This document shows positions 19,417-28,291 of a stretch of 34,123 nt of DNA, in pieces. How positions within the stretch are numbered: position 1 is the stretch's first letter; every line of letters begins with the position of its first letter. Under the pieces are notes generated by a model. The model saw only the letters and a program-made list of their open reading frames with translations, made no database searches and was not told the origin of the DNA. The position numbers and the translations under genes are program-made. The stretch comes from Candidatus Rokuibacteriota bacterium (lineage in GTDB: Bacteria > Methylomirabilota > Methylomirabilia > Rokubacteriales > CSP1-6). The DNA lies in assembly GCA_016188005.1 (NCBI GenBank), contig JACPIQ010000052.1, positions 1 to 34,123 on the forward strand. The letters run 5' to 3'.

Positions 19417-20406
19417 TCAGCGGAAGAGCGCCTCCCCGGTCCGGCTGAGCATCGGCACGCCCCGGACCTCCTGGTCGAAGAGCGGCACCACCGCCCGCAC
19501 GCTGCCGTCGAACTTCTCGCGGATCGTCCCGAGGTGCTCGTCCTGCATCTGCATGCGATTGAGGACGAACTCGGGCACCTGGCTCCCCATGGCCTGGCGG
19601 TCGAGGACCATGTTCACGATCACGCCGCCGACCGGGATGCCGAAGTCGTGGAACCAGCCGATGAAGCGGGTGATCACCGCGATGGGCAGGGCCTCGGGGA
19701 GCGTGACGAAGAAGAACGCCGTGCGGGCGGTGTCGGTCAGCAGCTGGCGGGCCTGGCCCATCCGCGTCCTGAACTGCAGCAGGTACGCGAGCAGCGGGTC
19801 CTCCTCCTTCTTCTTGGTGAAGGAGAGCATCTCGCGGAGCGTGCGCGCCTCCTCGCGGGACTTGAGCATCTTCTCCACCCACAGCGCGTACACCTTGGAC
19901 ATCCCGAGGAGCCGCCGGGCGTTGGCGGTCGGCGCCGTGTCGAACACGTAGACGTCGTACTCCCGCTTCAGCATGAGGTCGACCATGTTCTCGAACATGG
20001 CCGACTCCTCGAAGGCGGGGTTCATGGTGGCCGACTCGACGAAGTCGTCGGCCTGGGTCTTGATGTCGGCGAACTTGAGGAACCACTGGATCTTCTCGCG
20101 GATGTCCCGCTTCGAACGCTCGATGGTCTCGCGCGTGTCGATCTCGTAGGCCCAGAAGTTGGGGGCGCCGCTGACCTCCGTGTGCCCGCCGGACACATCC
20201 TGCCCCAGCAATCCCGACAGGCTGTGCACGGGGTTGGTCGAGGCCAGAAGCGTGCGCCGCCCCTGGCCGCTGAGCCACAACGCCGTGGCGCCCGCCATCA
20301 CGGTCTTCCCGACGCCGCCCTTGCCGCCGAAGAAGACGAACCGGAGATCGGGGTGCTCCTGGAGATACCGCCGCATGGAGGTGGAGATCTCGAGCGTCGC
20401 GCTCAT
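19417..20406 (-). CDS. ArsA/Get3-like ATPase, second copy (switch I Asp to Asn)
   Basis: A soluble P-loop ATPase of 329 aa. The deviant Walker A is FGGKGGVGKTV (about 26-36). Switch II is intact, DTAPT at 156-160. Switch I, which reads DPAHN in yeast Get3 with the catalytic Asp57, reads NPVHS here, so the catalytic Asp is Asn58. In Get3 the corresponding D57N change is known to stop hydrolysis. There are no Cys, so neither the ArsA metalloid site nor the Get3 zinc CxxC is present. A role in arsenite export is therefore unlikely. ATGA overlap with the first ATPase gene indicates coupled translation and probably a heteromer. Last gene of the six-gene run. Confidence 0.88.
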   Translation of the reverse strand: MSATLEISTSMRRYLQEHPDLRFVFFGGKGGVGKTVMAGATALWLSGQGRRTLLASTNPVHSLSGLLGQDVSGGHTEVSGAPNFWAYEIDTRETIERSKRDIREKIQWFLKFADIKTQADDFVESATMNPAFEESAMFENMVDLMLKREYDVYVFDTAPTANARRLLGMSKVYALWVEKMLKSREEARTLREMLSFTKKKEEDPLLAYLLQFRTRMGQARQLLTDTARTAFFFVTLPEALPIAVITRFIGWFHDFGIPVGGVIVNMVLDRQAMGSQVPEFVLNRMQMQDEHLGTIREKFDGSVRAVVPLFDQEVRGVPMLSRTGEALFR

Positions 20407-21395
20407 GAGCGCCCTCCCTCGCCGTCGGCGAACAGCCGATGGGCCAGCCGCTCGATCATCCCGAGGCCGGTCACGTCGCGCTCCATCTCGGGCACGTAGG
20501 CCAGGACCCGATCGCCGAACGCCTGCTTGATGGCGCCCAGGTACCGGTCCTGCATCGCAATTCGGTTCTGGAGGTAGGCCGGGGTGCCGGGGCTGCGCAG
20601 CTCTGGCGGCAGCACCCGGTTGACCACGTAGCCGGAGATGGGCACGTCGAACTTGGCGAAGAGCGCAGCCGCCTTCTGGGTGTCGAGGATGATCATCTCC
20701 TCGGGCACCACCACGAAGAAGAAAGCGGTGCGGGTGCTGTCGGTGAGGATCCGCGAGGAGGCGTTGATCCGGTCCTTGATGTAGTTCAGTTCCTTGAGGA
20801 TCTGGTCCTCCTGCACCGTCTCCTCCCGCCGCATGGTGGCGGCGACCTGATCGTACTGCTGCATCTCCTCCCGGAGCTTGGTGATCTTGTTGATCCACTC
20901 GTCGTAGACCTTGGCCATGCTGAGGTAGTAGAGCGCGTGCCCCAGCGGGACCAGGTCGTAGATGTAGTAGTCGTAGTCGCCCTGGACGATGATGTCGACC
21001 ACGGCGTCGAAGATCGCGCTCTCCTCCATGGCCGGCTCGGCCGAGGCCGCGGCGATGTAGTTGTCGATCTCTTCCGGCACCTTCTCGAAGCCGTACATGT
21101 CCAGGATCTTCTTGCGGATCTCCTCCTGGTACTCGCGGATCCTGCGGTCCGCATCCACCTCCTGGGCCCAGAGGTTGTCCATGATCTTCACGGGGCCCTT
21201 GCCGAAGATGTCCCGCTGGAAGATGTCGGAGAGGCTGGCCTGGGGATCCACCGAGAAGAGGAGCACGCGCTTGCCCTGGCTGGCCAGCCAGAAGGCGCTG
21301 GTGGCCGAGAGCGTGGTCTTGCCGAGCCCGCCCTTGCCGCCGAACATGATGTACCGCCGGTCCGGTTGACTCTCGAAGACGGTCTTGAGGGCCAT
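20403..21395 (-). CDS. ArsA/Get3-like ATPase, first copy (switch II degenerate)
   Basis: A protein of 330 aa, paralogous to the next gene. Walker A is FGGKGGLGKTT (about 18-28). Switch I keeps the catalytic Asp50 (VDPQASLSD) but lacks the following His/Asn of DPAHN. Switch II, DTAPT in Get3 and in the paralogue, reads DLVPLGHAL (Asp147). There are no Cys residues. The middle of the protein is long, helical and charged (REYQEEIRKKILDMYG, KLREEMQQYDQVAAT), in the place where Get3 binds hydrophobic clients. It sits 10 nt after the small protein gene at 21406 and overlaps the second ATPase by 4 nt. Likely function is nucleotide-driven handling of a membrane or hydrophobic partner; this is inference. 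Confidence 0.88.
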   Translation of the reverse strand: MALKTVFESQPDRRYIMFGGKGGLGKTTLSATSAFWLASQGKRVLLFSVDPQASLSDIFQRDIFGKGPVKIMDNLWAQEVDADRRIREYQEEIRKKILDMYGFEKVPEEIDNYIAAASAEPAMEESAIFDAVVDIIVQGDYDYYIYDLVPLGHALYYLSMAKVYDEWINKITKLREEMQQYDQVAATMRREETVQEDQILKELNYIKDRINASSRILTDSTRTAFFFVVVPEEMIILDTQKAAALFAKFDVPISGYVVNRVLPPELRSPGTPAYLQNRIAMQDRYLGAIKQAFGDRVLAYVPEMERDVTGLGMIERLAHRLFADGEGGRS

Positions 21396-26214: not shown

Positions 26215-26628
26215 TCAGGGCCTGGGGGCGCGGGCCTCGGCCTCGCGGATCCGGGTCTCGGCCTCGCGCGCGCGGTCCTCGGCCTCCAGCATGCGCGTGG
26301 CCAGCTGGCGGATCAGCGCCAGCGCCAGCGCCGGGTTCGAGCGCACCAGGTGCTCGAGCCGGTTGGCCGGGATCAGCATGAGCGTGACGGGCTCGGCGGC
26401 CACGGCGTCGGCCGAGCGCGGCGCGTTGCGGAAGAGCGCCAGCTCCCCGAGCAGGTCGCCCTTGCCGAGCACGCGCAGCACACGCTCCTCCGTACCGAAG
26501 CGCCGCCGGATCTCGACCTTGCCCTCGTGCACCATGAAGGCCTCGCCGTTGGCGCCGTCCCCCTCGCGGAAGATGAAGTCGCCGGGCTTGAAGGTCCTGG
26601 TGGGCACGTCCCCGATCTGACGGCTCAT
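26215..26628 (-). CDS. cyclic-nucleotide-binding (Crp-like sensor) domain protein without HTH
   Basis: A protein of 137 aa consisting of one cNMP-binding domain: RTFKPGDFIFREGDGANGEAF, then VHEGKVEIRRRF, RVLGKGDLLGELALFRNAPRSA with the phosphate-binding GELAL-x(n)-RSA loop, and a C-terminal helix (PALALALIRQLATRMLEAEDRA). The loop residues needed for cAMP or cGMP binding are present. No DNA-binding domain follows; the tail is a charged coiled coil (AREAETRIREAEARA). It may act as a regulatory subunit or scaffold. The gene is divergent from the protease-rhodanese gene with 40 nt between start codons, so regulation may be shared. Confidence 0.88.
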   Translation of the reverse strand: MSRQIGDVPTRTFKPGDFIFREGDGANGEAFMVHEGKVEIRRRFGTEERVLRVLGKGDLLGELALFRNAPRSADAVAAEPVTLMLIPANRLEHLVRSNPALALALIRQLATRMLEAEDRAREAETRIREAEARAPRP

Positions 26629-26668: not shown

Positions 26669-28291
26669 ATGGTACGCCGATTCGCCCTCTCCGCGACACT
26701 GCTCCTGGCCTTCGCGGCGGGCGCCCCCGGAGCGGCCCAGGCCCAGAGGAGCCTCAGCGTGCAGGAGGCGCTGCTGCGCGCCAAGCCCGCCGTCGTGCTC
26801 GTGATCGCCGAGGTCTCCGCGGAGGTCACGCTCGACTGCGGCGGCGGGCCCACCACCATGACGCCGCCCGCCTTCCGCGAGACGGGCACCGGTTGGTTCG
26901 TGGACGGTCGCGGCTGGATCATCACCAACGGGCACGTGGTGCAGCCGGCGCACACGCCGCCGCGCTGGCTCGTCAACCAGCAGGCGCAGCGCGCCGTGAC
27001 CACGGCCTGCCTGCCGAAGGCGCTCCAGCGCCAGGGGATGACCCCGGGCGAGCGGCCGGAGCTCGAGGACGCGATCAAGCGCAAGCTCCTCGACCGGGTG
27101 CTGCCGACGACGAAGGTCAAGCTCACCCCGCAGGTGTCGGTGGTCATCTCGAGCGGTGCGCGCTTCAAGGCCGAGGTGAAGAAGTACAGCCCGCCGGTGA
27201 GCAACGATCCCGGCGCCATGTCGGGGCGGGACCTGGCGCTCCTGCACGTGCCCGGCGCGGAGTTCCCCGTGCTGCCCCTGGCCGACTCCAAGGTGGTGCA
27301 GATCGGCGACCCCGTCCACATCCTCGGCTTCCCGGGCGTCGTGCTCTCCCACGAACTGCTGAACAAGTCGGCCGGCGTCGAGGCCTCCGTGACCAACGGC
27401 GCCATCTCCGGCTTCAAGCAGGACGTGGCCAACCAGCCGGTTCTCCAGACGGACGCGCCCGCGGCCTGGGGCAACTCGGGCGGGCCCGCGGTGAACCAGA
27501 AGGGGGCCGTGCTGGGCGTCCTCACCTTCGTGTCGCTGGCGCCGGGGCCGGAGGGCTCCATCGTCCAGGGCTTCAATTTCGTCATCCCCGCGAACGCGGT
27601 GCGCGACTTCGTCAAGGACACCGAGGTGAAGCTCGAGGGGAAGAGCAAGTTCACGGAGGCCTGGTTCAGCGGGCTCCGCGAGTTCTTCAGCGACGACTGG
27701 AAGGCCGCCGCGCGGCACCTCGAGCAGGCCGACGCGCTGTTGCCGAACCTGCCCGACGTCAAGCGGGTCCTGGCCGAGGCCCGCGAGAACGTGAAGAACC
27801 CGCCGCCGCGGCCCTTCCCGTGGTTCTGGGTGGCCATCGGCGTGACCCTCGTGAGCGGGGCGGGCTATGGCACCCAGTTCGCGCTGCGCTGGCACAAGAA
27901 CCGCTACCGGATCCAGCCCTCGGAGGTGATCCGGATGCTCGAGTCGGGCAAGGCGCCCACCGTCCTCGACGTACGCAGGACGGAGGTCTACGATGCGCTC
28001 CCGCTCAAGATCCCGAACTCGGTGCGGCTGGCGCCCGAGGAATTGTCGAGCGGCGTGGGGGGGCTCGAGCTGGACACCACCCGCCCGGTGGTCGCCTACT
28101 GCACCTGACCCGACGAGGCCACGAGCGCCCGTGTGGCGCGGGACCTCCGGAAGCTGGGATTCAAGGACGTCCGGATCCTCAAGGGCGGTCTCGGCGCCTG
28201 GACCAACGCGGGGCTGCCCATCGAGACCCGCTCCGACATCTCCGCCGTGGGCCTCGAGCTCTACAAGGCGCTGGCCAGCGGCAACGTCTGA
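26669..28291 (+). CDS. membrane-anchored trypsin-like protease fused to rhodanese domain, selenoprotein (TGA at 28106-28108 read as Sec480)
   Basis: A 540-residue product. Signal peptide 1-25 (cut after AQA); trypsin-like protease domain with His89 (ITNGHVV), Asp188 (GRDLALLHV) and Ser270 (WGNSGGPAV); one membrane helix about 383-405 (WFWVAIGVTLVSGAGYG) followed by positive charges; then a cytoplasmic rhodanese domain from about 417. The rhodanese loop reads VAYCT-TGA-PDEATSARVA and the domain continues perfectly after the TGA (KLGFKDVRILKGGLGAW) to a TGA at 28289-28291. Homologous loops that I remember read YC-x-CP-x-EAT, so the TGA stands where the second Cys would be, giving C-T-U. A SECIS-like hairpin follows. 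Start at 26669 is preferred for the signal peptide; TAGAAT at 26646 may be its -10 box. Standard annotation would truncate it at 28108. Confidence 0.85.
28115..28147 (+). promoter_or_regulatory. SECIS-like hairpin for Sec insertion (rhodanese gene)
   Basis: The apical stem GCGCC/GGCGC (28125-28129 with 28135-28139) closes the loop CGUGU. It can extend through an internal loop to an outer stem, GAGGCC pairing with GG-A-CCUC, ending at 28147. The apical loop lies 22-26 nt after the UGA, almost the same distance as in the thioredoxin-like gene. Paired by eye only. Confidence 0.65.

Follow-up and report, generated by a model that had tools for sequence, protein, structure and literature searches.

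The gene at positions 26,669 to 28,291 of the window (the whole stretch of 34,123 nucleotides that was analysed) very probably encodes a selenoprotein in which an HtrA-like protease, a transmembrane (TM) helix and a rhodanese domain follow one another in a single chain. Its in-frame UGA at codon 480, two residues past the catalytic cysteine of the rhodanese loop, is almost certainly decoded as selenocysteine (Sec), judging from the comparison of homologous sequences. The fusion of such a rhodanese to a transmembrane protease is, as far as we have checked, new.

Gene and domain architecture

The features of the gene are as follows.

26669 to 28291, + strand: whole gene, 540 residues plus stop; signal peptide, HtrA-like protease, TPR-like helices, TM helix, rhodanese with predicted Sec480
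26669 to 26746, + strand: signal peptide, residues 1-26 (from sequence: hydrophobic core, AQA precedes residue 27; low-confidence region of the model)
26885 to 27520, + strand: trypsin-like (HtrA/DegS-type) protease domain, residues 73-284 (Pfam PF13365, Trypsin_2, 83.5 bits)
26933 to 26935, + strand: catalytic His89
27230 to 27232, + strand: catalytic Asp188
27476 to 27478, + strand: catalytic Ser270
27647 to 27796, + strand: three TPR-like helices, predicted to be periplasmic, residues 327-376 (AlphaFold2 model)
27821 to 27901, + strand: TM helix, residues 385-411, followed by basic residues (sequence and model)
27917 to 28207, + strand: rhodanese domain, residues 417-513 (Pfam PF00581; NF041203, 74.4 bits)
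28100 to 28102, + strand: codon of Cys478, the catalytic residue in the rhodanese loop (90 of 93 members have Cys)
28106 to 28108, + strand: UGA codon 480, predicted to be read as Sec (TGA in 50 distinct members, elsewhere Cys, Ser or Thr)
28125 to 28139, + strand: predicted SECIS hairpin, GCGCC, loop CGUGU, GGCGC (invariant in TGA forms)

The host genome is a 5.37-Mb Rokubacteria-type MAG of a soil or groundwater bacterium. The start at 26669 is preferred from the alignment with homologues; the frame is already open from an ATG at 26627. The assignment of an HtrA-like protease, made in the original prediction, stands: the H89/D188/S270 triad sits in a trypsin-like fold that matches DegS, DegP/DegQ and HtrA1 in Foldseek, and the triad is intact in every family member that holds the region, one decayed row excepted. 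Pfam scans of the protein gave no PDZ domain, the usual companion of HtrA and DegS proteases; in the AlphaFold2 model (mean pLDDT 81, from a 44-row alignment) the TPR-like helical segment occupies the place where HtrA proteases carry it. The single TM helix is followed directly by the basic stretch RWHKNRYR, from which the C-terminal rhodanese tail would be expected to lie in the cytoplasm in vivo, the side on which it had been placed before. We consider this layout and topology likely to be correct.

The rhodanese loop reads Y-C478-T-U480-P-D-E483, so that the proposed C-x-U pair of Cys478 and Sec480 is retained. Residue 480 is located after a strand ending at Tyr477 and directly before a helix (residues 481-495) in the AlphaFold2 model; a fold of the rhodanese domain from the single sequence reached a pLDDT of 39 and was discarded. 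Along with the H-D-S triad, C478, D434, R436 and E483 are conserved across the family. E483 is identical in all 93 members, and the three members that lack C478 have Asp there, all of them non-TGA forms.

Two features outside the coding region may be mentioned here. A stem-loop terminator had been suspected 3' of the gene. The stem was found, with eight perfect base pairs (28313-28320/28331-28338, read from the sequence); it carries no T-run, and a terminator scan gave no intrinsic terminator 3' of the gene. Further away in the window, the ORF list has two adjacent genes for ArsA/Get3-like ATPases with GGKGG(V/L)GKT motifs (19417-21395, - strand).

A UGA conserved at codon 480

A single in-frame TGA (28106-28108) separates YCT from PDEATSARVA, and the frame then stays open to the TGA at 28289-28291, just as the original prediction had described. 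The Pfam rhodanese match (39.4 bits, gathering cut-off 22.2) extends across the internal TGA. To see how general this arrangement is, homologues were surveyed in 95 genomes of the phylum, 60 of which contain the family. Fifty distinct members have TGA at exactly codon 480; they come from 46 of the 95 genomes and represent about 20 genera in two families. The remaining members have Ser (34), Thr (5), Cys (2, L041 and L094), Glu (1) or Ala (1) at this position; neither TAA nor TAG was found at codon 480 among the family members of the surveyed genomes. Cys also takes the Sec position in rhodaneses of other phyla (YCTCPDEA..., L042-L058). The UGA thus aligns with Cys or with UGA, both flanks are conserved, and none of the homologues simply ends at this point, which had been named beforehand as the outcome that would speak against Sec. 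The host genome itself has a second copy, a paralogue of 63% identity with the same TGA (C8:321352-322905).

The sequence downstream of the UGA is under purifying selection. Among close TGA relatives with enough changes, dN/dS is 0.02-0.12. It rises to 0.46-0.56 in comparisons with the two remotest of the TGA relatives tested, for which synonymous sites are near saturation.

Two further readings are an error of sequencing or assembly and a reassignment of UGA across the genome (to Trp, for example). No evidence was found in favour of either. The same TGA is present in independently assembled genomes (L034, L035 and L039 among them) and in the paralogue, and TGA is the stop of the window gene and of many homologues, which refutes a reassignment. 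Because 50 distinct sequences from independent assemblies have the TGA, a read error, a concern raised at the outset, is not the explanation. We consider the chance of either origin negligible.

The hairpin downstream of the UGA

A hairpin with its apical loop 22-26 nt past the UGA had been predicted, and it is present: the stem is formed by 28125-28129 and 28135-28139 and the loop, CGTGT, spans 28130-28134. Its comparative pattern proved decisive. The consensus GCGCC-NGNRU-GGCGC occurs, wobble positions included, in 50/50 TGA genes and in only 2/42 non-TGA genes. In the codon alignment, codons 486, 487, 489 and 490 are AGC, GCC, GTG (or ATG) and GCG in every one of the 50 TGA genes. Among the 95 conserved fourfold-degenerate columns of the gene, zero third-base variation is found only at codons 487, 489 and 490, while the third bases at these three codons vary freely in the non-TGA genes. 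Given the TGA genes, RNAalifold recovered the stem; given the non-TGA genes, it predicted no structure.

The hairpin directly after the UGA is therefore conserved beyond what the protein code asks for. Since it is invariant in all TGA genes and absent from 40 of the 42 non-TGA genes, we identify it, on these comparative grounds, as the SECIS element. The two exceptions, L041 (TGT, Cys) and L076 (GAA), both lie near TGA relatives and look like recent losses of Sec. Folding of the region after the TGA had been proposed as a check; the energy is unexceptional for the single sequence (z = +0.35). Folding energy was uninformative as proof of a SECIS element, and the comparative wobble test was used in its place. 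An Rfam scan around the gene returned no match at E <= 1.

The pattern bears directly on one alternative, namely that translation really ends at UGA480; the protein that functions would then consist of the protease, the TM helix and a stub of the rhodanese, and the remainder of the frame would be decaying. UGA serves as an ordinary stop codon in the host, TGA also ends the gene itself, and some paralogues lack the rhodanese entirely. A decaying remainder, however, is difficult to reconcile with the purifying selection past the UGA, with the retention of both frame and hairpin in 50 distinct members, or with a glutamate at position 483 that never varies, and the Cys, Ser and Thr homologues read straight through. 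We regard a true stop as very improbable.

Selenocysteine machinery of the host genome

The prediction also depended on a Sec machinery, which was looked for and found: selA, selB, selC and selD are all in the genome. The first three form one cluster on contig C4; the tRNA-Sec scores 69 bits and is called tRNA-SeC with anticodon tca by ARAGORN. SelD itself carries a Sec codon (AACAGUASK; L163, contig C86), and the Sec motif of two formate-dehydrogenase-like genes contains an in-frame UGA (SRVUHS and ARIUHS; L169 on C8 and L170 on C49). SelD and these two proteins are likely further selenoproteins of the host, to judge by their motifs. A GC-rich, hairpin-forming stretch follows the Sec codon in all three genes.

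SelB was found in 83 of the 95 genomes, 38 of the 46 with a TGA form and 45 of the 49 without. Being so widespread, it is uninformative as co-occurrence evidence for Sec. Eight TGA-bearing MAGs have no SelB match; tRNA-Sec was found in one of them, and the other seven (four less than 90% complete, two at 95% and one at 100%) have neither, a point that speaks against Sec decoding. These seven MAGs probably lost a single sel cluster in binning.

Because of the homologues, the SECIS hairpin, the machinery and the selection, and with TGA serving also as the gene's own stop, we exclude a true stop, a sequencing error and a UGA reassignment as readings of codon 480.

Evolution of the family

In a tree of the 93 members built with the codon-480 column left out, the TGA/non-TGA label changes at least six times, and TGA is spread across both families. 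A clade of 32 Ser/Thr rows in family f1 is nested inside TGA lineages, which indicates that Sec was lost to Ser or Thr there. Since TGA and Ser paralogues coexist in many genomes, Sec is dispensable for the fold. Its losses were not mainly to Cys. A recent review regards losses of Sec to Cys as rare, with documented cases mainly in FdhA and SelD (PMC13188914); in contrast to that view, the present family exchanges Sec for Ser, Thr and Cys.

Some paralogues have the protease and end before the rhodanese (G057, G059, G060, G061 and G006; L157-L161), with matches ending near positions 350-396 of the search model. A pattern-limited scan of genome contigs gave no full-length members of the fusion outside Rokubacteria/Methylomirabilota. 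In MAGs labelled Anaerolineae or Bacteroidota (L042:3705-5336, L043-L046) the same loop is found in C-x-C form in a rhodanese that, in L042, is attached to the C-terminal end of a Na+/H+ exchanger.

Exchangeable C-terminal arms

The gene next to the protease-rhodanese gene, on the opposite strand, encodes a protein with a cyclic-nucleotide-binding (CNB) domain.

26215 to 26628, - strand: CNB domain protein, 137 residues, divergent neighbour (PF00027, 80.1 bits)

The neighbour retains the phosphate-binding arginine motif PRSA (...FRNAPRSADAVA..., read from the sequence), and it is divergently adjacent, directly upstream, in 9/9 rows of the window clade, whether these have TGA or Cys. TGA forms of the protease-rhodanese protein stop shortly after the rhodanese. 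Nearly all Ser/Thr forms of the f1 clade, by comparison, run on into a CNB domain (PF00027, 82 bits in L036), and the neighbour is 52% identical to the CNB domain fused onto these Ser-type paralogues. In family f5 it is a PilZ domain that is fused to the C-terminus of the Ser forms (27 bits in L148; rows L148-L151). By eye, the c-di-GMP motifs of these PilZ domains look degenerate. The host genome has 21 matches to class-III cyclases.

Gene adjacency in one clade together with fusion in a sister clade is a classic sign of functional linkage, and CNB and PilZ are input modules, not outputs, in most known proteins. Because CNB and PilZ replace the Sec arm and a CNB gene adjoins it, the rhodanese tail is a plausible cytoplasmic input domain. 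The C-terminus would then be the cytoplasmic input arm of a periplasmic protease, the Cys-x-Sec arm taking a redox- or sulfur-type input and the CNB or PilZ arm a second-messenger-type one. The role in sensing across the membrane put forward in the original prediction seems more likely in the light of these replacements.

A possible route of control across the membrane

SelB and tRNA-Sec almost certainly decode UGA480 at the downstream SECIS hairpin. The resulting C-x-U loop would face the cytoplasm in a protein that crosses the membrane once, with an HtrA/DegS-like serine protease as its likely periplasmic part. In the mechanism that we propose, Cys478 would accept sulfane sulfur or an oxidising equivalent, and Sec480 would resolve the state of Cys478 as a Cys-Sec selenenylsulfide, as general rhodanese and Cys/Sec chemistry suggests. 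The redox or persulfide state might then be relayed by way of the TM helix and TPR-like linker and thereby gate the periplasmic protease. Such gating is a tentative proposal, which we hold possible and short of probable. If true, it would mean that periplasmic proteolysis is switched from inside the cell through selenium-based redox sensing.

The protein could be a selenoprotein all the same and have an ungated, constitutive protease, the rhodanese being a membrane-anchored sulfurtransferase or a carrier of persulfide or selenium. C-x-U and C-x-C rhodaneses do occur alone in Chloroflexi, without other known domains, and on a Na+/H+ exchanger in Anaerolineae, and the NF041203 model is a single rhodanese of 126 residues. 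On the other hand, about 20 genera in two families share the order protease-TM-rhodanese, and in lineages that have lost Sec the arm has not disappeared but has acquired CNB or PilZ. We take a rhodanese working independently of the protease to be a serious possibility, though not one to be presumed.

There is also the question of what the protease would act on. The paralogue and at least 21 other members (L073, L114, L124 and L140, for example) have a gene for a secreted protein upstream on the same strand. The protein has 2-23 copies of the octapeptide QDVQAPR[G/T/S] between a start containing CPPEV and a helical C-terminus, and it gave no convincing Pfam family, only a weak Gp5_trimer_C match on the repeats. 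One host-genome copy (L009:2061-2747, on C8) is directly upstream of the Sec paralogue and a second is at C119; there is none near the window's own protease-rhodanese gene. On account of its repeated arginines we suggest the repeat protein as a candidate substrate or ligand of the protease.

As a periplasmic ligand encoded just upstream of many paralogues, the same protein could favour a flow of information in the reverse direction, in which the state of the periplasmic protease or its substrate controls sulfur or selenium transfer by the cytoplasmic rhodanese. DegS-type proteases do sense periplasmic signals, as is established for E. coli DegS. The DegS signal, however, is read by the PDZ domain, which is absent here, and CNB and PilZ, the domains that stand in for the rhodanese, mostly serve as inputs. 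The reverse flow is therefore in our opinion unlikely. Returning to control from the cytoplasm, one may extend it to a phylum-wide set of transmembrane periplasmic proteases with exchangeable arms (CxU rhodanese, CNB and PilZ) for which the octapeptide-repeat protein would be substrate or ligand; this wider picture is rather doubtful.

Comparison with known systems

The CxU rhodanese selenoprotein by itself is already known. It is form 3, NCBIfam NF041203 (rhodanese_LYCAU, example TKB26178.1), in PMC13188914, and COG0607 form 2 in PMC9312934, where it is credited to Zhang & Gladyshev 2005. Sec is at catalytic Cys+2 in both that family (LYCAU) and the window protein (AYCTU). The relationship covers window residues 410-521 at 74.4 bits, below the curated cut-off of 115; the window rhodanese is a relative, not a member, of the NF041203 equivalog. 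The known family is a single domain of 126 residues, whereas the window rhodanese forms the C-terminal, cytoplasmic part of a protease with a TM helix.

With HtrA and DegS (TIGR02037 and TIGR02038) the window protein has in common the protease fold, the H-D-S triad, the periplasmic location and the membrane tether. It differs in having TPR-like helices, a C-terminal TM helix and a rhodanese instead of PDZ, and it falls far below both cut-offs (73.2 of 416.2 bits for TIGR02037 and 59.7 of 423 bits for TIGR02038). Serine-protease proteins with predicted Sec are not without precedent, since trypsin-like and MucD selenoproteins were predicted in the Global Ocean Sampling survey (PMC2398784). In the trypsin-like protein Sec is inside the protease domain and in MucD it is part of a CxxU motif, unlike the CxU of the separate rhodanese domain described here. 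TsoB (NF045694), which is rhodanese/DsbD fusion-like, likewise joins a rhodanese that contains Sec to a membrane protein; it has a UxxxxU motif, a DsbD-like partner and no protease, and scores 15.6 bits against the window protein.

None of the words protease, trypsin, peptidase and HtrA appears in the 2026 review (PMC13188914), and no description of a protease-rhodanese or protease-rhodanese-CNB selenoprotein was found in the literature searched. A groundwater MAG survey (ref. 66 in PMC13188914) is reported to have a Methylomirabilota MAG with 63 selenoprotein genes, the largest bacterial selenoproteome; the survey could already list the window gene, undescribed.

With this fusion the prokaryotic selenoproteome would gain a transmembrane protease that contains Sec, and annotation pipelines that read UGA as a stop truncate such proteins at residue 479. 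Genomes that have both TGA and Ser paralogues, with arms of redox type and of nucleotide type on the same kind of protease, offer a testable system for the way in which a periplasmic protease might be controlled by a cytoplasmic signal.
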